Shown here: one piece after another, positions 13,294 through 34,840 of the stretch
Numbering within the stretch: position 1 is the first letter of the stretch
Layout of the letters: each line of letters begins with the position of its first letter
Assembly (NCBI GenBank): GCA_026392115.1
Contig: JAPLCQ010000045.1
Coordinates: 1-34,840, forward strand
DNA: 34,840 nt
From: Armatimonadota bacterium
GTDB lineage: Bacteria; Armatimonadota; Chthonomonadetes; Chthonomonadales; CAJBBX01
Direction: 5' to 3'
The notes under the pieces: generated by a model
Database searches by the model: none
What the model saw: only the letters and a program-made list of their open reading frames with translations
What the model was told of the DNA's origin: nothing
Program-made: the position numbers and the translations under genes

Positions 13294-14901
<1,608 letters not shown>

Positions 14902-16083: not shown

Positions 16084-17487
16084 ATGGATGCCAGTGAGCG
16101 TGAGCGCGCGTCGTTCGAGCTGTCTGCCTTTGGTGCGAGCGAGGTCCGTGTCGACGGCGAACCTGTCGTCTTCCTTCCTAGGAAGGCGAAGTGGTTGCTG
16201 ATGCTTCTCGCCCTCGCCAGCGCAGAGGACCGGTCGCTCTCACGCAAGGAGCTGTCCAGCGCGCTCTGGCCGTGGGGCGACGGCAGCGAATACAACGTGT
16301 ACCGGCTCATGCCGAAGCTCCGCGGCGCTCTGAAGACGGAAGCCTCGCGGATCGTAGAGCCGGTGCCGCACGTTCTTCGCCTCGACCTGCGCGACGCCGA
16401 CGTGGACCTGCTGCGCTATCGTTCCGCTCTAGCCTCGGCCGTTCAACAGGCGGACCCGGCCCCGATCGAGGCGGTCCCTGAACTCCGGCCAAGCCGTCTG
16501 ATGCTGGACTTCCCGGAAGGCGAGGCCACCATGGAGCGCGAGCGGGCGAAACTGCGTGTCGAGTTCATCGATGCCCTTGACGCGATCGCCGACCGCGCCA
16601 TCCCGGAGGGCGACCTCGACGGCGCGGCTCGGTCCATCGCTCTCGCGATCGCGGAGACTCAGCAGCCGGATGAGGCTCGCACGCGGCGCCTGATCGAGAC
16701 ACTGGCCCAGCTTTCCCGACACGAGGAAGCACGGGCGGCTCTCGAAGCCTATCAGCGGAGAGGTGGTTACCCGTCGGAGCAGCTTGTCAAGCTGGTGCGG
16801 TCCGCGGATGCGGTCCGCGAAGCCGGTCCGCGCGGGGGCTATGGGCAAGTAGCGGCGCCGCCTGTCCGCAGCGAGCATTCGCAGGAGGTCCGGCGCGAGC
16901 TCGCCGCGCTGGTACACAACGAGGGTACTGCCGCGAAGCTGCGCCGGTACCTGAGAGACAAGCCGCACCTGCTGGTCGGGTCTCACCACGTGTTGGCCGA
17001 CACTGTAATGTGCGACGTCCGTCTGAGTCCCGGCGTACAGACCGACTTTGCCTACCTTGAGCCGCAGTCAGGACTCGGCTGCCTCCACATGATCTCCTTC
17101 GCAGACCCGAGCGCGCGCATCTTCAGAGAGCGAGGCGAGTTCACGGCACAGTTCTATCGCGCTTGCGAGGTGCTCGATGCCTGCGCCTACTGGATCGGAC
17201 GCAACCAGGTGCTGCTCCCGGCCGTCTTCGGGCCGCGCCTTGACGAAGTGCCGGGCACGAGCTTGGCGCCCGGCTTCTACCTACCCAGGTGCCGGCTGAT
17301 CATCGGTCGCCGATCCGAACTCGACAGCGCTCGCTGCCGCGACAAGCTGCATGCCAGAAGGGGCGCTGGCGATAGCGGCATCGTGATCCGCACCTACGAC
17401 GGCTTTCTAGAGGAGGCGGAGCCGACGATCCGGACAAACCCGCGAAACGAGCTTGGGATCAAATGCAGAAACTACGACGGCGACTGA
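16084..17487 (+). CDS. SARP-like winged helix + BTAD + degenerate Shedu (DUF4263) domain
   Basis: 467 residues with three parts. (1) Residues 10-100: a winged-helix domain of the SARP/OmpR type, with FELSAFGASEVRVDGEPV, then LPRKAKWLLMLLALASAEDR and LSRKELSSALWPWGD. (2) Residues 105-240: a helical BTAD/TPR region with MERERAKLRVEFIDALDAIA and RLIETLAQLSRHEEARAALE. (3) Residues 268-455: a domain resembling DUF4263 of the Shedu anti-phage nuclease. It shows LRRYLRDKPHLLVGSHHVLA, TDFAYLEP with Asp321, ISFADPSARIF, LIIGRRSEL and IRTYDGFLEEA. The family's E-x-E/K before P-S-A-R-x-F is replaced by Ser338 and Ala340, so the PD-(D/E)XK site looks dead. A DNA-binding sensor or regulator derived from a defence effector is the best guess. 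It overlaps the end of the RepO-like gene by 16 bases, tail to tail. Confidence 0.7.
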   Translation: MDASERERASFELSAFGASEVRVDGEPVVFLPRKAKWLLMLLALASAEDRSLSRKELSSALWPWGDGSEYNVYRLMPKLRGALKTEASRIVEPVPHVLRLDLRDADVDLLRYRSALASAVQQADPAPIEAVPELRPSRLMLDFPEGEATMERERAKLRVEFIDALDAIADRAIPEGDLDGAARSIALAIAETQQPDEARTRRLIETLAQLSRHEEARAALEAYQRRGGYPSEQLVKLVRSADAVREAGPRGGYGQVAAPPVRSEHSQEVRRELAALVHNEGTAAKLRRYLRDKPHLLVGSHHVLADTVMCDVRLSPGVQTDFAYLEPQSGLGCLHMISFADPSARIFRERGEFTAQFYRACEVLDACAYWIGRNQVLLPAVFGPRLDEVPGTSLAPGFYLPRCRLIIGRRSELDSARCRDKLHARRGAGDSGIVIRTYDGFLEEAEPTIRTNPRNELGIKCRNYDGD

Positions 17488-20105: not shown

Positions 20106-20405
20106 ATGCTTGAACAGGAACGCACTAGACCGGTCCGGGTGGAGCTAGGGGCTCTTGTGGCCACGCCAGGCGCTATCGACGCGCTGACCAAGGCGGGTGT
20201 CACGCCCATCGAACTGATCGCACGCCATCAGCGAGGCGATTGGGGGGAGCTGTGCTCGGAGGACAGAGCCGAGAACGACCTATCGCTGCGCGATGGGTTT
20301 CGGCTTCTCTCCGCCTACGCGCTGCCGCGGACGGGCGCCAGGATATGGGTCATCACAGAAGCCGATCGCTCGGTGACGACACTGCTTCTTCCAGATGAGT
20401 ACTGA
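20106..20405 (+). CDS. Small conserved mobile-element protein, copy 1
   Basis: 99 residues from ATG 20106. The core LGALVATPGAIDALTKAG, then ELIARHQRGDWGELCSED, LRDGFRLLSAYALPRTGARI and WVITEADRSVTTLLLPDEY, is a family I know from plasmids and integrative elements in many phyla. It is often mis-annotated as a plasmid-related or restriction-associated protein. Its function is unknown. It is soluble and compact, with conserved Trp, Asp and Glu residues in the GDWGE and ITEADRS motifs. A paralogue lies near the right side of the element at 33665-33955. It heads a plus-strand set with its own promoter. Confidence 0.8.
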   Translation: MLEQERTRPVRVELGALVATPGAIDALTKAGVTPIELIARHQRGDWGELCSEDRAENDLSLRDGFRLLSAYALPRTGARIWVITEADRSVTTLLLPDEY

Positions 20406-22900: not shown

Positions 22901-24946
22901 TCACGTCGCTCTGAACCCATTCTCGGAAGCCAGTCTCAGAAGCTGGAGGCCCTCGGTCACCTGGCGAGGGCTTGGTCGCCGGCCATAGCCGGCTAAGAGT
23001 GCTAGGTCAGATGCGATCTTGCGCTGCAGCGCCGTGAGGTGCCCGCTTGAGCATCCCCAATTCGCTAGCTGGAACCATGCGTCCGCGCTAACGGCCATCA
23101 CCTCCTGCGCGCTCCCGTCTGCTGCATCTGCGTCGGCGGCTGTGCCCGGGCCTTGGGAGCTACGGCTCCGCCCAGCGCTGAGCTCAAGGTGGAGACCGTG
23201 TGGCATCGGAAGCTCCCTTGTGAGGAAGCTCGTCCAGCAGCTCTCCTTCTTGCAGTACTGAGTTACGTTCCCATTGTCCGGCGCGTTCGTAATGTGGTCC
23301 CAAGTGTATCGGGATCGTTCCCGAATGGCCTCCTCTAGCACCGGCGAGATGCCTTGCTCGCGCCATATCCTGCCTAGGTCGATCTTCCCCCTAGCGTCGT
23401 GGGCCAACCGAGCCAAGGTGTAGGTTACGAGATTTGCGCGGTAGCCTGCATAGCCGCACTCCCTCATGATCCGCTCTGCGGTGCGGAACAGGATCGCCCG
23501 CGCTACGAGGCGCTCAAAGTACGGTGTGTCGACTGCTCCTTCGCATTGGATGTGCTTGTCGAGCTTCGTCGTGAAGTCATTGAAGCAGCTCTGTGCACCC
23601 CGGCTTACTACGTGCGGCAACTGCTCCCAAGTCCAGATGAACTTCGCCAGATCCGTCTTGGTGATCTGCTGGGTGGGCGGATGTACGGTCTGGAACTCCC
23701 GCTGCCTACCAGGGGTCCGCTCCCTGGCCAGGTCGTCCCGGTACTGACCCCTCGCTCGTTCGTAGTACCAGCGCGTTTGTCTCAGGCCTCCGCTGCGGGC
23801 AGGCGCCCAGATCGTGCGGGAGAGCTCCTCAATGCGCCGGTGGTATGCGTCATTGGCGGCCAAGTCGGCTGTCTGAATCTTGTTCTGGCTGTTGGCGTAC
23901 TCGGAGATGAGTGGTACTACCTCGTCCATTCTGTCCGGGTCTCTGAGGACCGTGAGCTTCACCTGCACGAATACCCGTGAGACGTCGGCTTTGTCCTTCT
24001 TCGCAGCGTGGTAGATGGATGCTGTCGTCTGCCCGCCATTCACGATCTGCAGATCACGTACCCACGAGATGCCCTTGCCACCGCCGGGCAGATCCAGTAT
24101 GCGGACTTCCTCGGCTGTCGCGGACAGGCCGTTGTTATAGGCGAGGAACATCTCCGGCTGCAGGCGGATGGTCCGCCTCATCCCCGCGTTGATCTTGCCT
24201 CGGGCTTGGAGGAACGAGCGGACGTTGCGCTCAAGTAGCCTAGGTCCGTACCGACCGTAGAGCTCCACGACTGCCGGGCCCGGCAGCACGGCAAGGTACG
24301 TATTATATGAGGCGTCATGCTCGAGCTGAGGCAGACACGGGACCGCGGCGCCTGTAGCCTCTAGAAAGTCGATCTCTATCGCCTCGCGCCTCCGGCCGGA
24401 CGACCAGCATCGGTACAACCGCTCGATGTCCCAGATGTGGTAGGAAACCCGGGTCTGCGCAAGGTCAGCGTCCTTCGGCGGATCGGTTCGGACCACGCCG
24501 TCCGTTAGGAGGAAGAACCGGATTCGCGTCACGGACCCTCGGATCTCATGGATCCGCTGAGCTACGTCGAAGACCCTCGTACTCTCGTCAACCGAATGGT
24601 GGTAGCCATTCAGTGCCTTGCTAGCGAACTGCCGAACGCGCTTGATGGCCGTCGTCACCTCGTCCTTGCCAACAGTGCGCGGCGGCACATCGCCGGTGTG
24701 GATCGTCACCAGGACGTCCAAGCACTCGGCATTCTCACTTATCGCACACCCGTTAACCTGTAGGCCGTGCGCTCGGTGCGTGCATACATCTGCGTCGTCA
24801 AGCTCTCCAGCATCACTGAGGTGCTCGATCATGATGTGCGAGAGGGCTGCCTCCTGGAACTGCTCCTCGCCCTCAGTCTCGCAGCGACTGATGACCTGCT
24901 GCTGAATATCCAGCGCAAAACTATCGAGAGTGTAAATATCGCTCAA
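22901..24946 (-). CDS. AIPR-family defence protein
   Basis: 681 residues from TTG 24946, overlapping the DUF4420 stop (TTGA) with GAGGTGG in front. The AIPR domain (PF10592, abortive infection phage resistance) covers about residues 215-520. Landmarks are LYGRYGPRLLERNVRSFLQ, INAGMRRTIRLQPEMFLAYN, NGLSATAEEVRIL, LQIVNGGQTTASIYHAAKKD and VPLISEYANSQNKIQTADL. The first 200 residues resemble the PD-(D/E)XK-like N-terminal domain of AIPR proteins (ALNGYHHSVDESTRVFDVAQ and FFLLTDGVV). AIPR proteins occur in abortive infection and in MORC/MutL-type islands, where they are part of the antiviral machinery. Here it ends the cargo operon. Confidence 0.9.
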   Translation of the reverse strand: MSDIYTLDSFALDIQQQVISRCETEGEEQFQEAALSHIMIEHLSDAGELDDADVCTHRAHGLQVNGCAISENAECLDVLVTIHTGDVPPRTVGKDEVTTAIKRVRQFASKALNGYHHSVDESTRVFDVAQRIHEIRGSVTRIRFFLLTDGVVRTDPPKDADLAQTRVSYHIWDIERLYRCWSSGRRREAIEIDFLEATGAAVPCLPQLEHDASYNTYLAVLPGPAVVELYGRYGPRLLERNVRSFLQARGKINAGMRRTIRLQPEMFLAYNNGLSATAEEVRILDLPGGGKGISWVRDLQIVNGGQTTASIYHAAKKDKADVSRVFVQVKLTVLRDPDRMDEVVPLISEYANSQNKIQTADLAANDAYHRRIEELSRTIWAPARSGGLRQTRWYYERARGQYRDDLARERTPGRQREFQTVHPPTQQITKTDLAKFIWTWEQLPHVVSRGAQSCFNDFTTKLDKHIQCEGAVDTPYFERLVARAILFRTAERIMRECGYAGYRANLVTYTLARLAHDARGKIDLGRIWREQGISPVLEEAIRERSRYTWDHITNAPDNGNVTQYCKKESCWTSFLTRELPMPHGLHLELSAGRSRSSQGPGTAADADAADGSAQEVMAVSADAWFQLANWGCSSGHLTALQRKIASDLALLAGYGRRPSPRQVTEGLQLLRLASENGFRAT

Positions 24947-25974
24947 CGGTCCACCTCACCGCACCCCGTCACTATGGAGTCCAGCTCCTCCTTCGTCACG
25001 GAATACGGTTGGCATACCGCGACGTCTATTGCGTATCTCACATCCCCGACACCGGGGCGAAGCTCGTTCTCAACAATGCGGGGAAAGCCTGGCTGCACTC
25101 TGAAGATGCTCCTCCCTCGCTCCGCATAGCCCATGCCGCTGTAGCGAGGCGCATGGACGTCGAAATACCCGGCCTCCATGAGCTTGTCCTCCAGCAGGTT
25201 GGACCCGGCCGCCTCCACACCGATGAGTCGGCGCAGTTCGTCAACCAGCGCTGGCAGGCTCTGGTCCAGGTCCCGGATCGGCTCAAGAGAGAGATGGTAC
25301 ACGTAGAGGCGAGCCAGTCCCGTATCGTCTAGCTGCCGTTCACTGGCAACTCGGAGCATCTGGGGCTGCTTCGCTATCGTTGTCTTGACCTCGACTGCCG
25401 TGCCGCCGAACTCGAAGTCCTTCGCGGCCTGGCTTGGTCCGGTCCACGACCGGACAGCCCACGCTGCTGGCCGTCGGGTCAGCAAGCAGTCCCGCAGGAA
25501 GATCAACTCGCCATATAGGCCGCGTTGCTCCTCTGGAGAGAGACCCTCGGAGCCATGCAGCTCGAGGAGCCGCTGCCACTTCGCGAGCCGTTCGGCGAAG
25601 GCCGCTACGGCCCGGTACCCGTCACGTATCTCAACGAGGCAGCCGGTGATGTCTTCCGCCAGGCTGGTGAATACGTCGTTGTACGCTCGTGATGTCAGCC
25701 GAAGCCGAATGGTCGCGTATCTGAGGCCCTCCTCATCAGATCCCTCGACGTTCACTTCGAATCCTCGGAAGGATGGGAGCCTCAGGTTGGAGGGAAGACA
25801 CTCAGCGGGGAAGCGTGCTCTGAAGCTGCGCAGGTTGGATGGCTTGGAGACGCCCACAAAGAGATCGCGCCCTTCCTGACTCGGGATGCGCCGCTCAAGG
25901 GTTCCCGGTGCGGTTGCCGAGACAGGCTGACCCTCGATATCGAGGAATAGCGCCTCAAGGCTCGTCGCTGACAT
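24943..25974 (-). CDS. DUF4420 PD-(D/E)XK nuclease
   Basis: 343 residues from ATG 25974; the start lies 20 bases inside the end of the Z1 gene, and an upstream in-frame extension is rejected. The family is PF14390 (PD-(D/E)XK motif protein). RGLYGELIFLRDCLL holds Glu156, AKDFEFGGTAVEVKTT holds Asp186, Glu195 and Lys197, and the residues between form the nuclease hairpin. The N-terminal 130 residues are strand-rich (LFVGVSKPSNLRSFRARFPA). It is the predicted DNA-cutting subunit working with the Z1 and GHKL proteins, with all catalytic residues intact. Confidence 0.88.
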   Translation of the reverse strand: MSATSLEALFLDIEGQPVSATAPGTLERRIPSQEGRDLFVGVSKPSNLRSFRARFPAECLPSNLRLPSFRGFEVNVEGSDEEGLRYATIRLRLTSRAYNDVFTSLAEDITGCLVEIRDGYRAVAAFAERLAKWQRLLELHGSEGLSPEEQRGLYGELIFLRDCLLTRRPAAWAVRSWTGPSQAAKDFEFGGTAVEVKTTIAKQPQMLRVASERQLDDTGLARLYVYHLSLEPIRDLDQSLPALVDELRRLIGVEAAGSNLLEDKLMEAGYFDVHAPRYSGMGYAERGRSIFRVQPGFPRIVENELRPGVGDVRYAIDVAVCQPYSVTKEELDSIVTGCGEVDR

Positions 25975-28777
25975 AGTCCATCTCCTCCCGCCAGAACACA
26001 GTGTTGGCGGCGTACTCAACGGTTTCGTCAGGCCGCCTGGTTCCGGGGAAGCTGATCGCGTAGCCGATGATTGGATGTCCGTTCCGCCGCGCGTCTCCGT
26101 TAGGGAACACAGCATCCGGATTGAGAGGGTAGATGAGCAGCAGACCCCGCTCAGGCGGCCTCGCCGCCCGGATAAAGCACCCGCCCGGTCGCTCTGGCGG
26201 CGGCGGCGGAAGCTGCCTGTTTCGCCAATCAGAGACGGCGGCATCCAGCGCCTCCGCGATCTCCCGCTCGTCGAGGTCCACTCCTTCGTCGAGCCGGTAC
26301 CCCGAGAGTATGTGCCTGTTCTTGATCCGGTAGGTATCCTCGGTCGACTTCCCGTCCGGCGTGCGCAGCGTGAGGCCAAGTTCCACCCCACCGACGACTC
26401 TGGGGCTCGCCTCTCGGCTTTGTCTGTTGTCGATGAGCGCAACGGTCCACGTCACCAGTTCACCGTGGAGCATCTTCTTGTCGATGAACTCCGACAGCTT
26501 CCTGGGATCTGCAGTGGGCAGGCCAGGGTGTCCCGCCAGCCTCCCCAAGAAATCCGATACGGCACCGCCGGGCACGGCGGTCCACAGCGAACCAGCATCG
26601 CCCTCCCTCGTGGCCATGCCTAGGGAGCGAATGAAAGCATCCGCCTGCTGGTAGTTTGCCTCGATGATCCCGCCGTCTTTCTGGAGCAGGTACGACTCCA
26701 CAAGCTGATTGGCGAATGAAACCTTGACCTTCTTGCTGTAGCGCATCTTGCCAGCATTGGTGACCAGGAGCCCACCAGGGTGGGTCTGTACCTTCAGCCC
26801 GAAGTCAAGCGGGGTCATGTGGGCACTGGCCATGCGGTCGAACTCCTGCCGTAGCTCCTCGCTGGCCAGCGTGATGTGTTCGAACCAGTCCACAAGCTCT
26901 TGCGTGGTGTACAGACGGCAGAGGTCGATGTAACCCGGACGATAGCCGAACCAACGCCCCATCTGCATGAGTGTGTCGTACATGCGAGCAGCGCGTAGGT
27001 AGTAGCTAATCGTCAACCCCTCCAAGGTGAGGCCCCGCGAGAGCTTGTCGCCGCCAACCGCGATCACGCTGATGCCATTGGGATGGTCGTAGTAGTCGAG
27101 GATATCGCCAGCATTCCCGCTGATCTGCTTGATCGTTATCTTCAGAGCGGCCGCACGCAGATGCGGCACTACATCGTCCCACGCGAGTTGCGTCAGTTCT
27201 GCGTCGTCGATCCTCTCGCGAACCGAAGCGGCCGTCGGAATGTAGTCTCTCTCCCACAGTGACCGAAGCTCAGCGAGGAGCTTCGGGCTGCGTTCGCCAT
27301 CACCGTACTCGAGCCGCTGGCGCAGCCCTCGGAGCTCCTCGCGAACTAGGTCCTCGACGAGCCCTTGGGCTTTGTTGAACCGGCTCACGTGGACGAGCAT
27401 CGAGTTGTGCACGTTCAGTTGGCCGCGAGCGGCGCGCGCGGCACACGTGAGGATGAAGGCGCGTATCGCTTCCTTTAGTGACTCCGGCAGTGCTGCTGGT
27501 TCTAGGTCGGACTTGTGGCTCGACGGGATCAGGTCCTCGTTGTCGTCAACAATACGCACGACCGGCAGTCCAGCCGAAGCGTCAATACCCACGTCGGGGT
27601 AGGCGTCTAGGCCGAAAACCTGAACCGGTCCTATGTAGCTTGACGGGGATGGCAGGTTTATGATGAAGCTTCGAGGGAACAGATCTTCACCCTGACTTCT
27701 GGTCGCTGCGTCGGGCGGGATGAAGATGTTGGCAAAGGGCGTGGCCGTGTAGCCCACATACGCGCTCTGCTCAAAGGTGTTCAGGAGCTCCCTGATCCGC
27801 TTGTTGATGGCGGTCAGATCCTGCTCCTCCTTGAAGTTGCCGTTGCCGTCCCGCTCAAGCTCCTTCGTGTTGATTGACGCGTTGTCTGCCTCATCATCGA
27901 GGAGTAGCACCGGTAGGCCCTTGACCGACCAGTTGCCGTCCTGGTCTCGCTCCCCCACCCGTGCCTGCACCCACCGCACGAGGTTCCGCAGGATGCTCCC
28001 GTTCTTCTTGACGACGAGAATCACAGGGTCGCTGCCGATGTACATTGCTACAGACTTGGCGGTACTGCTCTTGAAATCGCCGTCGTCAGCGCTAGTGGTG
28101 GGGGAATGAACAGCGAGACGACGTTCAGAAACCACGATGAACCCGACGCCCATCTTGGCGCTGTCCTGCGTGAACACGCGGCTTTGCTGGGTGTCGTATC
28201 CGAGGAATCCTTCGTCCAACCTGAGCTGCGTCTGGCTGCGGAGGCTATTGGTTGATCCAGCAAGGACGATCACGAGTTTGTACCCAGAGTCAACCGCCTT
28301 ACATATCAGGCCGGTGTAGTTGCCAGTCTTGCCGGACTGCACCTGTCCGACCACTAGGCCCCAGCGACGCCACTTTCCTCTCCGTGCCGGGTCTTCGAGA
28401 TGTGCGAGAACGCGGTCGGTTAGCCCGTCCAGGCGCGCCACGATCTGGGGCGGCAGACGCTTCTGCTGCTCCAGATAGAGCTCATACCGGTGCCAAAAAT
28501 CCCAAGTGATCGCGGGTCGTTTGTCGTGCAGCCACGGGACATGGCCGGCCGGATCGACCAACTCAGTTCCGTCTGGGACCCAGATGTTGAGTACGGACTC
28601 AATCTCCTTGGCCAGCGCTTCCTCGTCCACGGATTCCCCACCGTGCAGCCCCATCGATGACACGGCGGCCCACGCGCTGTGAACGGCCGCACGTATCTGG
28701 TGCGGCTCTGGCGGCTGAAGCGTTCTCAGAAGCATTAGCGCCATGTTCCGGATTTGCTCGGCCAGTGTCTGCTGCAT
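25955..28777 (-). CDS. Z1-domain helicase-like protein
   Basis: 940 residues, starting MQQTLAEQIRNMALMLLRTL. The Walker A motif is GQVQSGKT (144-151), with the Q-rich form typical of Z1. The Walker B is LLLDDEADNAS (294-300 core), followed by FEQSAYVGYTATPFANIFIP as the SFII motif III-like TAT. The Z1 domain (PF10593) lies in the middle third, including LSRGLTLEGLTISYYLRAAR, MYDTLMQMGRWFGYRPGYID and LCRLYTTQELVDWFEHI. It is a DNA-dependent ATPase in MORC/MutL-type restriction-like islands. Thirteen bases separate it from the GHKL gene. Confidence 0.92.
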   Translation of the reverse strand: MQQTLAEQIRNMALMLLRTLQPPEPHQIRAAVHSAWAAVSSMGLHGGESVDEEALAKEIESVLNIWVPDGTELVDPAGHVPWLHDKRPAITWDFWHRYELYLEQQKRLPPQIVARLDGLTDRVLAHLEDPARRGKWRRWGLVVGQVQSGKTGNYTGLICKAVDSGYKLVIVLAGSTNSLRSQTQLRLDEGFLGYDTQQSRVFTQDSAKMGVGFIVVSERRLAVHSPTTSADDGDFKSSTAKSVAMYIGSDPVILVVKKNGSILRNLVRWVQARVGERDQDGNWSVKGLPVLLLDDEADNASINTKELERDGNGNFKEEQDLTAINKRIRELLNTFEQSAYVGYTATPFANIFIPPDAATRSQGEDLFPRSFIINLPSPSSYIGPVQVFGLDAYPDVGIDASAGLPVVRIVDDNEDLIPSSHKSDLEPAALPESLKEAIRAFILTCAARAARGQLNVHNSMLVHVSRFNKAQGLVEDLVREELRGLRQRLEYGDGERSPKLLAELRSLWERDYIPTAASVRERIDDAELTQLAWDDVVPHLRAAALKITIKQISGNAGDILDYYDHPNGISVIAVGGDKLSRGLTLEGLTISYYLRAARMYDTLMQMGRWFGYRPGYIDLCRLYTTQELVDWFEHITLASEELRQEFDRMASAHMTPLDFGLKVQTHPGGLLVTNAGKMRYSKKVKVSFANQLVESYLLQKDGGIIEANYQQADAFIRSLGMATREGDAGSLWTAVPGGAVSDFLGRLAGHPGLPTADPRKLSEFIDKKMLHGELVTWTVALIDNRQSREASPRVVGGVELGLTLRTPDGKSTEDTYRIKNRHILSGYRLDEGVDLDEREIAEALDAAVSDWRNRQLPPPPPERPGGCFIRAARPPERGLLLIYPLNPDAVFPNGDARRNGHPIIGYAISFPGTRRPDETVEYAANTVFWREEMDYVSDEP

Positions 28778-28790
28778 GGCTTCTAGCTCC

Positions 28791-30302
28791 TTAGTCTTCT
28801 TGCTCCGCTATGTCATCCAAAGCGGCTACGAGGTCCGGGTAGAGATTGAAGGGCTCCAGGTTCATCAGGCGGACTTTCGCCTCGCCGCGGCTCAGGCCAG
28901 CGCTGCGCAGTAGGCGATACGTCTCTTCGAGGGCAGTTCGCAGCGCGGAGGGCGTATGCTCGAACGGCGTGCTGTGCTTGTCTGGCGATTCTGCGGCATC
29001 AAGCGTAATGGTCGGAATCGGAACGGTCTCTTCGATCAGGGGCAACAACGTCCGAACAATGCGACCGGCCTCCCCTGGCAACTGGAGAGCGCTCTTAACC
29101 ACGGGGTGGTCTCGGTTGATCGTATACGAGATGCGTCCATGTTTGACCCGCTTGTCCCACAGGAACACCATCTCATGGACGCCTCTCACGATCCGCGCGC
29201 CTCGATACCGGTAGACGTCCGAGGCTCTCGCCCGAGTGATGTTCGCGATCCGGCGCAGTTCCCTTCGGATCGTCGGAGGAGGATAGGCTCGTGACTTCTT
29301 GATGTCGATCTGCCAGTCAGCATCCATCCAGTTGGGAATGTCGAGCATGATGCGCGCCAGTTTGTAGTGCTCTTCCCGCTGGTATCCGAGGCCTAGCCAG
29401 TCTCCTGCCACGAGCAGGCGCTTGTTCCTGTACACGTAGAACCCCTGGTGCATATTCCATCCGCGTATCCCGGATGCCCCTCGGTAGACCTCCGGCGATG
29501 CTTTCGAGTGGTGAGGAAGCACGTATGGCTTTACCACAAGGCGTGTGCCACAAACGGCCAGTGCTTCCTCGGCTAGCAGTTGCGTCGCTGGGTCCCTGGT
29601 CAGAAATGGATCCCAAGGGACGACCGCAGTCCCGTTCACATGGATCCGGAGAGCTCGCGCCCCAGCCAGAAACCGATGGAACACCATCGCTAGGTGCTCC
29701 CGAACCGCATCAGCGTTGGCGTAGAACAGGGCCTGGTCGGCAGGTGTATCACGATCTGTGCCCGACACGATGCGATCTGCGTTCTCCCATACAACGATCG
29801 TTCCACATGGCAAACCGTCGAGCTTCTGGATGTACGCAGCGGCTCGCTCGGACGCCGTGCGCTGAAGGCGCCATTCGCAGCACGCCGTGATGTAGTCCAG
29901 GTCCCAGCACCGGGTCGCAAGAGCCCCGCCTTTGGGCTTCGAACTAACGGTCAATCGTCTGCACTGCGAGAACGAAGCCGTCTTGAGTCCCAAGCCAAAC
30001 CTGCCGAGGTCAGATGGTTCACGCTGGACTTCCGGACTGGTGCTGCCTAGACGCATGGCCTCAATGAGGGCGCCCTCAGTCATACCGTGGCCGTCATCGA
30101 TGACGGCGATCGTCGAGTTGTCCCCATCCCAGTGAAAGTCCAGCCAGACATTCGTTGCACTAGCCGATATGCTGTTGTCGATCAGGTCCGAGATGGCCGT
30201 GGGCAGGTCATACCCGACCGCCCGGAGAGACTGGGCCATGGAGTCCGCGCGCGGCTCGGCATAGTCGTACTCTGGAATCCCTATCGTGACGTCATCATTC
30301 AC
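28791..30302 (-). CDS. GHKL ATPase, MutL/MORC-like
   Basis: About 503 residues from GTG 30302, where AGCGAGGAA gives a ribosome binding site; the start overlaps the glycosylase stop by eight bases. A GTG at 30344 would add 14 residues. The Bergerat fold is complete: ISDLIDNSISASATNVWLDF (N box), AVIDDGHGMTEGALIEAMRL (G1) and SDLGRFGLGLKTASFSQCRR (G2). The residue equivalent to the general-base Glu of MutL (E-L-x-E-N) is Asp in this frame. The second half has the S5-like part (IMLDIPNWMDADWQIDIKKS). It is expected to clamp DNA in an ATP-dependent way and license the Z1/DUF4420 nuclease. Confidence 0.9.
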   Translation of the reverse strand: MNDDVTIGIPEYDYAEPRADSMAQSLRAVGYDLPTAISDLIDNSISASATNVWLDFHWDGDNSTIAVIDDGHGMTEGALIEAMRLGSTSPEVQREPSDLGRFGLGLKTASFSQCRRLTVSSKPKGGALATRCWDLDYITACCEWRLQRTASERAAAYIQKLDGLPCGTIVVWENADRIVSGTDRDTPADQALFYANADAVREHLAMVFHRFLAGARALRIHVNGTAVVPWDPFLTRDPATQLLAEEALAVCGTRLVVKPYVLPHHSKASPEVYRGASGIRGWNMHQGFYVYRNKRLLVAGDWLGLGYQREEHYKLARIMLDIPNWMDADWQIDIKKSRAYPPPTIRRELRRIANITRARASDVYRYRGARIVRGVHEMVFLWDKRVKHGRISYTINRDHPVVKSALQLPGEAGRIVRTLLPLIEETVPIPTITLDAAESPDKHSTPFEHTPSALRTALEETYRLLRSAGLSRGEAKVRLMNLEPFNLYPDLVAALDDIAEQED

Positions 30303-30999
30303 CAGCGCTTCCTCGCTCTCGACCGGGACACCGTGCGTAGTCACACAGCTCGTTTAGAGAGCACACCGCACATTTCGGCTTGGTGGGCGTGCAGGTAGTC
30401 GCCGCCAGATCAAGAAGTGCACGGTTGTGACGAATCCCGTGCCCGGCGGGCACCAAGCCGGCAGCCACGTCCCACAGCCTCATATCCTCACGAGGCCGCG
30501 CCTTCTGTGACCACACCGAGAAGACCCTTCCCAGAATGCGAATGATGTTGGTGTCGACGAGCGCTGTGTCGCGCCGATACGCGAAACAGAGCACCGCATT
30601 GGCCGAGTAGCGGCCAATTCCTGGCAGCGATACGAGCGCGTTGTACGTGCTAGGCACCTTGCCAGCATGCTCACTCACGATTATGTTCGCGGTCACTCTC
30701 ATCAGCCTGGCGCGATCCTCAATGCCGAGTAGCCGGATAGAGTCGCGTAGCTCCCTTTCATCGGCACGAGCTAGGCACTGCACCGTCGGGTATCGCGCGA
30801 TGAACGCGGTATATACGCCCTCTACTTTCCTGACGTCGGTCTTGCGAAGCATCATCTCTGCCACGAGGATGTGGTACGCGCTACTTCGACCGCCTCGCCA
30901 CGGGAAACGCCTTCCCGCCGTGCGGTACCATCCGTAGAGCCTTGTGGCAAACTCCTCTCTGCGGTCCGCGTCCACTGGCATCTCAGATACCGAAGACAT
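30295..30999 (-). CDS. HhH-GPD mismatch glycosylase, Mig/MutY-like
   Basis: 234 residues from ATG 30999 (an ATG at 30981, just after the methyltransferase stop, is possible). The helix-hairpin-helix is LPGIGRY (125-131), followed by SANAVLCFAYRRDTALVDTN with the catalytic Asp149. Cys203, 210, 213 and 219 (C-x6-C-x2-C-x5-C) bind the [4Fe-4S] cluster. Tyr131 replaces the Lys of endonuclease III. In the archaeal T:G glycosylase Mig.MthI the same place is Tyr, and that enzyme accompanies a C5-methyltransferase. I infer removal of thymine from T:G mismatches made by deamination of 5-methylcytosine. A MutY-type A:G role is the alternative. It overlaps the methyltransferase gene by 17 bases. Confidence 0.85.
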   Translation of the reverse strand: MSSVSEMPVDADRREEFATRLYGWYRTAGRRFPWRGGRSSAYHILVAEMMLRKTDVRKVEGVYTAFIARYPTVQCLARADERELRDSIRLLGIEDRARLMRVTANIIVSEHAGKVPSTYNALVSLPGIGRYSANAVLCFAYRRDTALVDTNIIRILGRVFSVWSQKARPREDMRLWDVAAGLVPAGHGIRHNRALLDLAATTCTPTKPKCAVCSLNELCDYARCPGRERGSAGE

Positions 31000-33178
31000 A
31001 TTCGGCCACGGCTGCCGTGACCAACGGGCAGACGGCATTCGCCAGTTGCTGCTGCTTGTGGGAGAGCCCTCCAGCCGTGCCAACTGCGCCGCCAGCGAAG
31101 CGGAACCAATCTGGAAACGACTGAAGTCGTGACGCCTCGCGCAGTGATAGCCCTCGGTGTTGGTCGGGGTGTATCAACATGCTCTTCCGGTAGTGCCCGA
31201 TCGTGATAGCCGGTTCGTCATAGCGAAGCCGTCGGTATATGCTGCTGTGTGTGCGCTCCGCGTCGGCGTAGTTGGTCAGGTGCTCCACGATATCTTCCCA
31301 GTTTCCCCCCGGGGGGACGAGCTTGTAACGCTCAATCACATAGGCGGCATGGCGCGACGTGACGTGGTCAGTGATGGTGCCGGACGGTGCACTCGCTCGC
31401 ATGGCGGCCAGGAACGCATTGCGGGCGAGGTCCGCCTCGGCCGGCCCCACATACGGACACTCGTCGACAAGCCGTCCGTTGGCGACCTCAGGAAGGTCGG
31501 CGATCGCGTCTCTCACGGTAACGTACGCCTGACCGGTGCCGGGCCCATGGGTTGGCCGCGGGAACGGGCCCCAGTCCCCGAAGTCCTCCCGGCCGTAACC
31601 GAGGTCACGGGACAATCCCAGGACGAAGAAGCGGTTTCGATGCTGTGGAACGCCGTACCACACCGCGTCAAGTACCTTTGGAAAGACCGTGTATCCTAGG
31701 TCGGCCATCTGGCATGCCAGGCTGTCGACCACGCTCACGTGCTCATATGTCGCCTCATGTGGCGGGGTCCAGAGAATCCCCTGGACGTTCTCCATCAGAA
31801 ACACCCGAGGGCGCAGAGCCGCCACGTACTGCAGGTACACGTCAACGAGCTTGTTGTTGGGGTTTCCGCTGTGCCACGTGTTCCGATTCGCGCTTGAGAA
31901 GCCCTGACACGGAGGGCCGCCGATTAGCACGTCTAGTCCACCTGCATCACGGACGCGTGAAGCCACGACCTGCATGGCCCGTTCGCTTCGCAGGTCGAGC
32001 GGACCTGCATCTTTTGGCACCGCCGAGGCGTGCCGTTGGCCTTCGAGTGAGGCGAATGCCGCATGGCTGAACGCGAGGGTTTGAACGTAGATAGGCTCGA
32101 CCTCGGCGGATACCAGCAAGCGATACAGGCTGCCGCGCTGCCGTGCGAGGAGGAACCCGAGCCCCATTCCGCCAGCTCCGGCGAACAGCTCAGCCACCGT
32201 AAGTTCGTTCCTCGCCTGCGCAAGGACGCGCCGGCGAGCGTCTTCGGCGGGACACGCCGCCGCGTCTCGGGCGGTGATCTCGTCCTGGTGGCGCATGATG
32301 GCTATGTTGGGCCGACCAGCCATTGCACGAGCAAGCTGCGGCCCCTGGAGTGTGGCTTGCCCTTCGCCGGCGCCCGCTGGCCCGTTTCTGGCCGCCCGCT
32401 CATCGCGTCTCGTGACTGGCCAGATCCATCTCGTCCAAGCGATGGCCCTTACCAGATCCGCATCGCGCACCCCTTCCTTGGATGCGAGCGCGATGAGCGT
32501 GCCAGGATTGAGCCCATGGATGCCACCTGTCTGCGATACGACGAGCCGCCCAGGAATGCCGGGCGCAATCTCGACGGGGCCGAGGTCAGCGATCTGATAG
32601 TCCATCGCACGACCGCTGATCGGATGGTCCACAGCCACTGTTCGCCACGCAGTGGCCTTGAGGAGGTCGACTAGATGGCTGGTGCCACGCGACGGCAGCC
32701 GCGCCTCAGCAGTAGCCCTGACGAGGGAGTGACTCCTGGGCACCAGCAGGACGAACCTGAAACCACGCTGATGTACCGCGTCGATGAGACGGAGGTCGCC
32801 ATAGCGAGTGCCCGCTGCGACGACCAGATCGCGCTCTACACGCGCGAAGCGCTCAAGCAAGGTGAGTGCTGCCATCTGGCGCGCGTCACGGCGCGTGCCA
32901 TCAGTTCGCAAGCCGAGCGACCCCAAAGTCTTGGCGCGCCCGTCTGTGATGAGGTGGGCGCTCAGTGTGATGCCCGGCCGCAGGGCGTCCCTGTCGTGCG
33001 TCGGTTCCCGGAATGCGCGCTCGGAGTCGTCCTCGATCAACAAGATCGGTGACGGTGCCGGTCTGAGGTCCTGGGCGCAGACGGCGGCGCCAAATGCGCA
33101 GGGGTCTCGTTCGCCATCAGGTTCGCGCAGCTCCAACGCGTCATCGCCTGCTGCACTCGACACGGCTGGCGCACTCAA
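30983..33178 (-). CDS. C5-cytosine DNA methyltransferase with DDE-transposase-like N-terminal segment
   Basis: The open frame is 731 codons from TTG 33178. Residues 330-731 are a complete Dcm-type enzyme: LFAGAGGMGLGF (motif I), GGPPCQGFSSANRN with the nucleophile Cys424 (IV), FLMENVQGI (VI), YGVPQHRNRFF (VIII), and a short target-recognition part before RLRYDEPAITIGHYRKSMLI and QQQLANAVCPL (IX-X). A start at ATG 32296 or 32323 would give a normal 437-446-residue enzyme, but neither has a ribosome binding site. Residues 40-290 resemble the catalytic core of IS4/IS701 transposases: ILLIEDDSERAF, DLVVAAGTRYGDLRLIDAVH, FRFVLLVPRSHSL and PGRLVVSQTGGIHGL. The second Asp and the final Glu of DDE are missing. 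It heads the cargo operon. Confidence 0.85.
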   Translation of the reverse strand: MSAPAVSSAAGDDALELREPDGERDPCAFGAAVCAQDLRPAPSPILLIEDDSERAFREPTHDRDALRPGITLSAHLITDGRAKTLGSLGLRTDGTRRDARQMAALTLLERFARVERDLVVAAGTRYGDLRLIDAVHQRGFRFVLLVPRSHSLVRATAEARLPSRGTSHLVDLLKATAWRTVAVDHPISGRAMDYQIADLGPVEIAPGIPGRLVVSQTGGIHGLNPGTLIALASKEGVRDADLVRAIAWTRWIWPVTRRDERAARNGPAGAGEGQATLQGPQLARAMAGRPNIAIMRHQDEITARDAAACPAEDARRRVLAQARNELTVAELFAGAGGMGLGFLLARQRGSLYRLLVSAEVEPIYVQTLAFSHAAFASLEGQRHASAVPKDAGPLDLRSERAMQVVASRVRDAGGLDVLIGGPPCQGFSSANRNTWHSGNPNNKLVDVYLQYVAALRPRVFLMENVQGILWTPPHEATYEHVSVVDSLACQMADLGYTVFPKVLDAVWYGVPQHRNRFFVLGLSRDLGYGREDFGDWGPFPRPTHGPGTGQAYVTVRDAIADLPEVANGRLVDECPYVGPAEADLARNAFLAAMRASAPSGTITDHVTSRHAAYVIERYKLVPPGGNWEDIVEHLTNYADAERTHSSIYRRLRYDEPAITIGHYRKSMLIHPDQHRGLSLREASRLQSFPDWFRFAGGAVGTAGGLSHKQQQLANAVCPLVTAAVAEYVFGI

Positions 33179-33664: not shown

Positions 33665-33955
33665 TCAGTACTCCTCGGGCAGCAGGAACGTCGTTGCCGA
33701 ACGGTCCGCCTCCGTGATGATCCAGAACTTCGTCCCGTTCCGGTCGCGGTAGGATGATAGGAGCCGGAACCCCTCACGAATGGAGAGCTCGTTCTCGGCC
33801 CAGTCCTCGGAGCCGACCTCGCCCCAGTCGCCGGCGGCGTGCCGCGACAGCGCCTTCAGCAGGTCGTCTGGATCCAGCGCGCTTACTGCGCCGCGCGTTG
33901 AGACGATCCTGCCCAGGTTGAACTGCCCTGCTGTTGTGTGTTTCTTGTCCGTCAT
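33665..33955 (-). CDS. Small conserved mobile-element protein, copy 2
   Basis: 96 residues from ATG 33955, preceded by AGGAGGACAT, a strong ribosome binding site. The long in-frame extension upstream is low-complexity and rejected. It is a paralogue of the protein at 20106-20405, with matching GDWGE, SEDWAENELSIREGFRLLSS and WIITEADRSATTFLLPEEY. The N-terminus MTDKKHTTAGQFNLGRIVST differs. The function is unknown, as for copy 1. Two diverged copies flank the defence cargo. Confidence 0.8.
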   Translation of the reverse strand: MTDKKHTTAGQFNLGRIVSTRGAVSALDPDDLLKALSRHAAGDWGEVGSEDWAENELSIREGFRLLSSYRDRNGTKFWIITEADRSATTFLLPEEY

Positions 33956-34840
33956 ATGTCCTCCTGTGTTACGGTTAACGTGTTTCTTCACAGCCGGCTG
34001 AGAAACCGGTAACCGGGCACGGGAGGACTGTTCATTGGCGGCGTGCGGCGGGCCGGAGCGATTGCCGGCGGGCATGACGCCGCTCTGCGGTGGCGTGACC
34101 GGTGCAGCGAGGCCCCACAGCAAGCCGGCCCTCGGGGCGGATACCAGACGGACGGAAACACGGCGGGGGGCAGTGCGGCAGGCGTCGATGTGCGGCGTGG
34201 AGCGCGGCACGGGGATGGGAAGGCGCTGCGGCACGCAGGCGACGGGGCACGGCGGGCGCGGGGACAGAGGAACGTACGACCGCGAGGGAGACCGCTCTTG
34301 TGTCGCCACCGGAACGGTATCAAGTGCGGCGTTTGGTGACCGTGCCCAGGTGCCAGATGGGGCGAGCGTTCCCACGGCCAGAGAGTGACTGACCGACGGC
34401 GTAGGTGCTCTGTTCGCGTAGCATCACCCGCCGGTCATGGGGATGGCAGCGATGTCCGCGACCGGCTGCTGGCCTGCCGCTGTGAGGACGCCGCCGTCGT
34501 CAGCCTCTGGTGCGCTAACAGCAGGGCACGATCCAGCGGAGCCCCCACGGGGCCAACTAGGCCAGTCGCCGCCAGGTCCGCTTTCGGTACGAGGCGTCGT
34601 GACCACTAACCATCCGCCATCTGACGCCCGTCCAGCGCAGTTCCGCCCACTACCGCGGCCCAGTGTATCATAGGAACTCCGTAAGCGTCAAACACTCCCC
34701 ACATTGCGGCCTACCTCCAGCCTGTGGTAGAACCGCCGGTGGGGTGCGGTATGCGTCGGACATGCTGCGGCCCGCCGTTTGACGGCCCGATCCGGGGTCT
34801 GGCTATGCCCGCTTGTTGGCGGGGGCCGCGCAGCGCTCTT
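33956..34840. other. Gene-free right end of the window
   Basis: I see no gene here; open frames give Gly/Arg/Thr-rich products without codon bias. Small features are an 11-base palindrome CCGGTAACCGG near 34005-34015, and two short hairpins at the very end, GCCGT/ACGGC (34774-34786) and CCCGC/GCGGG (34808-34823). No second copy of the tRNA 3' end is present, so the element continues beyond the window. This could be an origin or transfer-origin region, but nothing proves it. Confidence 0.5.

Follow-up and report, generated by a model that had tools for sequence, protein, structure and literature searches.

MzaABCDE (MZA) is reportedly an antiphage system, going back to work by Gao et al. in 2020, and MZA-like systems are said to have been tested as antiviral. 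A solved MZA mechanism was not found in the literature that we searched.

Operons joining MORC, Z1, endonuclease, Dcm and AIPR genes were predicted by Iyer et al., 2008 (PMC2292703), who published two signature motifs, and a Type II candidate system of the MORC-Z1-nuclease-AIPR kind was described by Miller et al., 2022 (PMC9523054). These islands encode a MORC or paraMORC ATPase, a Z1 superfamily II helicase, a nuclease of restriction-endonuclease (RE) fold, Dcm and AIPR; Vsr is frequent among them and is not a defining member. Restriction by a Z1 motor together with a nuclease has been shown biochemically for CglI and NgoAVII (PMC4267653).

Here, we analysed a stretch of DNA of 34,840 nucleotides (the window) and found a six-gene operon that is real and of a known kind, and new in its repair partner. 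It is probably a mobile copy of a MORC-Z1-DUF4420-AIPR (MZA-like) modification-restriction system whose glycosylase guards its own 5-methylcytosine (5mC) against deamination.

Gene content and order of the operon

The minus strand of the window carries, from 22901 to about 32323, six frames that all have Pfam domains above cut-off, in the order C5-methyltransferase, glycosylase, MORC/GHKL ATPase, Z1 helicase, DUF4420 nuclease and AIPR. A first-pass annotation had proposed these six genes on one strand and in this order, and the frames and Pfam assignments bear it out. The features are as follows.

32606 to 32878, minus strand: remnant of an IS701-family transposase (NF033540), open in frame with the methyltransferase
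30983 to 32323, minus strand: C5-cytosine DNA methyltransferase, 446 aa (PF00145, E = 1.4e-38; TIGR00675 above cut-off)
30295 to 30999, minus strand: predicted Mig.Mth-type T:G mismatch DNA glycosylase with a 4Fe-4S site (HhH-GPD, HHH and EndIII_4Fe-2S domains)
28791 to 30344 (alternative start GTG 30302), minus strand: MORC-family GHKL ATPase, MzaB-like (MzaB, E = 3.4e-116)
25955 to 28777, minus strand: Z1-domain superfamily II helicase/translocase, MzaC-like (MzaC, E = 2.7e-206; PF10593)
24943 to 25974, minus strand: DUF4420 PD-(D/E)XK nuclease, MzaD-like, 343 aa (PF14390, E = 2.5e-72; MzaD, E = 2.2e-24)
22901 to 24946, minus strand, start TTG: AIPR protein, MzaE-like (PF10592, E = 1.2e-97, and AIPR_N; MzaE, E = 4.9e-103)

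Several starts differ from those first assigned. That of the methyltransferase moves from 33178 to near 32323 (ATG 32323 or alternatively ATG 32296): in the long ORF reaching to 33178 the methyltransferase domain runs from residue 327 on, and residues 101-191 match NF033540 (E = 2e-4, under its cut-off). A 731-aa fusion was rejected because its N-terminal part holds this IS701 remnant. The DUF4420 frame was placed at 26442 and is better started at ATG 25974, behind a good ribosome site (GGAGG), the frame upstream of 25974 only overlapping Z1; for the glycosylase, 31083 was corrected to ATG 30999 or 30981. With these refined starts, the earlier statement that neighbouring genes overlap or lie at most 13 bases apart still stands, the overlaps measuring 17 bases between methyltransferase and glycosylase, 8 bases between glycosylase and MORC (50 if MORC starts at GTG 30344 instead of GTG 30302), 20 bases between Z1 and DUF4420 and 4 bases between DUF4420 and AIPR, with a 13-base gap between MORC and Z1. 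The six genes may form a single transcript.

All six frames are intact and retain their catalytic motifs. The methyltransferase has FAGAGG, PPCQ, ENV, QHRNR and NAV. The ATPase, whose best solved match is human MORC4, carries at residue 301 the MORC-specific motif GFYVYRNKRLL, which fits the published GhXhhpXXRhl, and the Z1 protein has a Walker A motif (GQVQSGKT), DDEAD and the signature DTLMQMGRWFG, which fits DThhQXuRhFG; a sequence search of solved structures gave no match for Z1. An active-site-like D..AVEVK is present in the DUF4420 protein. Signature motifs and fold matches of this kind do not speak to present activity. Defence profiles identified Z1, DUF4420 and AIPR as MzaC, MzaD and MzaE and the ATPase as MzaB, rather than as members of unrelated families.

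This gene order was compared with 102 independently fetched related loci (80 from bacterial and archaeal genomes, 22 from viral contigs), taking 8 kb as the neighbourhood and detection thresholds chosen for this analysis. Of 105 loci, drawn from many phyla, 89 contain MORC, Z1, DUF4420 and AIPR together and 94 have a C5-methyltransferase within 8 kb (93 of the 102 independently fetched), so the six-gene order is far beyond chance. The exact order was found again in Methanosarcina (L029), a member of the Bacillota (L033) and a euryarchaeote (L083).

Predicted fold of the AIPR protein

Abortive infection gave the AIPR/AbiU1 proteins their name; in an earlier proposal, AIPR was connected with DndB and predicted to bear an N-terminal HEPN RNase (PMC3506569). 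The AIPR protein of the operon also matches the AbiU profile (PADLOC), and it could act as a toxin, arresting or killing infected cells, with the other proteins serving to sense infection. We consider this unlikely, if the strongest of the alternatives. In an AlphaFold2 model built with 50 relatives (mean pLDDT 87), the N-terminal domain has the alpha/beta layout of restriction endonucleases and not the all-helical one of HEPN: residues about 3-186 align with AF1548 (Z 9.2), FokI (9.1), MspJI (8.1) and HamA (7.8), a conserved ExK not being evident in this domain. The near-universal methyltransferase, moreover, points to self-marking.

A separate model of the middle domain (pLDDT 90) matches ParB, Noc, PadC, sulfiredoxin (Srx), BrxU, SspE and one uncharacterised entry with Z values of 4.3 to 7.3; 14 of the 15 listed matches belong to the named proteins, with a best Foldseek E of 0.03. 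For the AIPR protein, sequence search of solved structures returned nothing and Foldseek alone gave no significant match. The strongly conserved motif IVNGGQTT of the middle domain resembles IVDGQQRLTT of GmrS, a motif of the ParB/Srx fold (PMC4619093). We take as a lead, given the middling Z values, that AIPR may join an endonuclease-like fold to a ParB/sulfiredoxin-fold domain, and the model would support the DndB-like part of the earlier proposal and not the HEPN part. If the ParB/Srx-like reading is right, AIPR would be linked to SspE, GmrSD and DndB, which suggests a nucleotide-gated step.

A mobile island at tRNA-Met

The operon rides a mobile island whose insertion point is the 3' end of tRNA-Met; one border of the island lies in the window.

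13361 to 13375, plus strand: attL core CCCGCTCCCATACAA, 15 bp, at the 3' end of tRNA-Met, with an identical attR copy at G000:C64:1614-1628
13327 to 14901, minus strand: large serine recombinase (integrase; Resolvase, Recombinase and Zn_ribbon_recom domains)

The stop codon of the recombinase lies inside the tRNA-Met gene, and the attR copy adjoins DNA whose counterpart directly follows the tRNA in a same-genus genome. The site is empty in two same-genus genomes. The island, of about 23 kb or more, has a lower G+C than the flank.

Other genes were noted on it. Between 15221 and 19941 lie phage-like replication genes (a Dam-type N6-adenine methyltransferase, a Phage_rep_O-like protein and an AAA ATPase), a set that points to a phage satellite or an integrative plasmid. 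The 467-aa protein encoded at 16084-17487 (plus strand) has an N-terminus like that of regulators and matches Shedu SduA at its C-terminus (PADLOC, E = 6e-10; Pfam SduA_C, E = 0.004, under cut-off); it may represent a second defence gene. A SIR2-like frame with GAGAS and TTNYD (L194, G000:C64:505-1480; PADLOC SIR2, E = 1e-7), possibly truncated, lies immediately inside the right att site and would be a further one. The operon is flanked by two paralogous small proteins without a Pfam family (20106-20405, plus strand, and the C-terminus of 33665-34375, minus strand), with the consensus DWGE..SEDWAEN.LS.R.GFRLLS.Y...WIITEADRS.T..LLP.EY.

Mobile cargo may also decay. The transposase remnant stands in frame directly upstream of the methyltransferase, where it may have severed a promoter, and scans of the operon with a promoter consensus and for terminators stayed at chance level. 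That the operon is such decayed cargo appears nevertheless improbable, as its frames and catalytic motifs are kept and a consensus scan omits promoters of other types.

A predicted Mig.Mth-type glycosylase in the place of Vsr

The best solved match of the operon glycosylase is Mig.Mth of Methanothermobacter thermautotrophicus (PDB 1KEA, E = 1.4e-40), with MutY behind. In alignments with 1KEA and Escherichia coli MutY, the residues that mark Mig.Mth are found: the active-site Tyr in LPGIGRYS (Lys in EndoIII, Ser in MutY) and the catalytic Asp in LVDTN both align with 1KEA, and the iron-sulphur cysteines are present in the FeS domain. The Mig.Mth residues, with Tyr where MutY has Ser, recur in all seven copies, that is, the operon glycosylase and six from related operons. 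Identity as MutY was rejected on the rank of 1KEA and on the Tyr, and the probable MutY of the host is a separate gene with 34% identity to the operon glycosylase. We therefore assign the enzyme, from its sequence, to the Mig.Mth-type T:G mismatch glycosylases, the activity being predicted. The mismatch repair ascribed to the operon by the first-pass annotation is borne out in this narrow sense, as a predicted T:G glycosylase in the place of Vsr.

No Pfam match to Vsr was obtained among the six operon proteins. Among the 102 related loci, Vsr lies near 54, a Mig-type glycosylase near 6, and both near none (Fisher p = 0.009 for exclusion, a value that overstates independence since the loci are related). 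With neither enzyme in the other 42, repair appears optional. The glycosylase occurs in 4 of 5 archaeal loci and in 2 of 75 bacterial ones; a weak 'glycosylase' at L021 was dropped, its HhH region missing. According to well-supported branches of the Z1 tree, glycosylase and Vsr must have been exchanged at least four times. The swap from Vsr to glycosylase has taken place several times in other lineages too. This alternation is most simply read as the replacement of one enzyme of 5-methylcytosine repair by a non-orthologous counterpart.

In the glycosylase tree, the other six copies form one supported group and the operon copy falls outside it, so that it looks like a separate capture. Its nearest relative by path is a restriction-linked copy on a Caldicellulosiruptor plasmid, a placement without support. 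Mig-type glycosylases adjoin C5-methyltransferases in other plasmid loci, one of them an ordinary restriction system. Four haloarchaeal plasmids (L171, L172, L174 and L175) carry one close to a C5 methyltransferase and to an overlapping 'ATP-binding protein', and neither Z1 nor AIPR is annotated there; these loci may represent a further GHKL-type system that includes a Mig glycosylase. At L045 (Gemmatimonadota), a second, divergent block of methyltransferase, glycosylase, AIPR and methyltransferase lies beside the MORC-Z1-DUF4420-AIPR core.

An enzyme encoded inside the operon might instead be an effector that strips bases from invading DNA, which a nuclease or AP-site chemistry then destroys, and glycosylase-based restriction does exist in PabI (PMC4081073). 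We hold this to be very unlikely, as the glycosylase alternates in like neighbourhoods with Vsr, a mismatch nickase, never occurring with it, is missing from most relatives, has the Mig.Mth tyrosine in all copies, and belongs to a type that also accompanies ordinary methyltransferases elsewhere. Least probable of all is a glycosylase-assisted restriction in which AIPR would be a ParB-like, nucleotide-gated DNA clamp with an endonuclease-like domain, the MORC and Z1 motors would deliver it to foreign DNA, and the Mig-type enzyme would contribute to the attack by making abasic sites in that DNA.

Proposed working of the operon

The modification-restriction reading that we prefer would work as follows. 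The C5-methyltransferase would mark the DNA of the cell itself; the ATPase, MORC, would close on DNA, or loop it, in an ATP-dependent manner; the Z1 superfamily II motor would translocate; and the DUF4420 PD-(D/E)XK nuclease would cut incoming DNA that is unmarked, which would give the operon its rule of self and non-self and its antiviral function. We infer self-methylation, MORC engagement, Z1 translocation and DUF4420 cutting from family knowledge and from the precedent of CglI/NgoAVII; the clamping and cutting that had been ascribed to the operon may be read in the same way. AIPR might bind DNA in a nucleotide-gated manner, as an effector or a regulator. The glycosylase would be no weapon, and would take thymine out of the T:G mismatches that arise when the operon's own 5-methylcytosines are deaminated, which is the job of Vsr in most relatives. 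Among the parts of this mechanism, the role of the glycosylase as a guard is the best supported.

The repeated exchange of Vsr for a glycosylase is also indirect evidence that the linked methyltransferase is active and makes 5-methylcytosine at a mutational cost. Such a cost speaks for restriction based on self-marking rather than for abortive infection alone.

Comparison with known systems

The operon shares with MzaABCDE homologues of MzaB, MzaC, MzaD and MzaE, in common order and in one operon (PADLOC). NCBIfam gives them these names, all below the equivalog cut-offs (462 of 850, 784 of 1500, 153 of 420 and 442 of 1050 bits), and the matches listed for the operon proteins (the best 25 of 58 in the case of the methyltransferase) and for the scanned island ORFs include none to the sigma-factor-like mzaA. 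The MzaA profile has matches on other contigs of the host genome, and also in 10 of 14 control genomes. With no mzaA found in the island and scores under the equivalog cut-offs, the operon appears to be a relative of MzaABCDE and not MzaABCDE itself. It adds a C5-methyltransferase, which is outside the named mza set, and a glycosylase; in the Thalassospira example of MZA, MzaA precedes MzaB and a methyltransferase lies downstream.

Like CglI and NgoAVII (PMC4267653), the operon combines a C5-methyltransferase, a Z1-domain SF2 ATPase and a separate nuclease. In contrast, those systems have three genes and a PLD/B3 nuclease where the operon has PD-(D/E)XK, and are without MORC, AIPR and glycosylase. 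Among the ParB/Srx-fold defence proteins GmrSD/BrxU, SspE and DndB, the AIPR middle domain aligns with the BrxU and SspE structures (Z at most 7.3), whereas AIPR would have an N-terminal endonuclease-like domain instead of HNH.

The match to MORC/Z1/AIPR islands in the first-pass annotation, which does not extend to MzaABCDE itself, holds for those of Iyer et al., 2008. Both signature motifs are present and an RE-fold nuclease is adjacent with Dcm and AIPR (DUF4420, PF00145 and AIPR), as in their third type, and on this evidence we identify the locus as a MORC-Z1-nuclease-AIPR island of that study, close to Type II of Miller et al., 2022. It differs from these islands in having a Mig-type glycosylase where Vsr stands, and the main text of Iyer et al., 2008 (PMC2292703) does not mention a glycosylase. 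Conversely, the operon glycosylase has in common with Mig.Mth, its best solved relative, the active-site Tyr and Asp and the 4Fe-4S cluster, and differs from it in sitting inside a MORC/Z1 defence operon.
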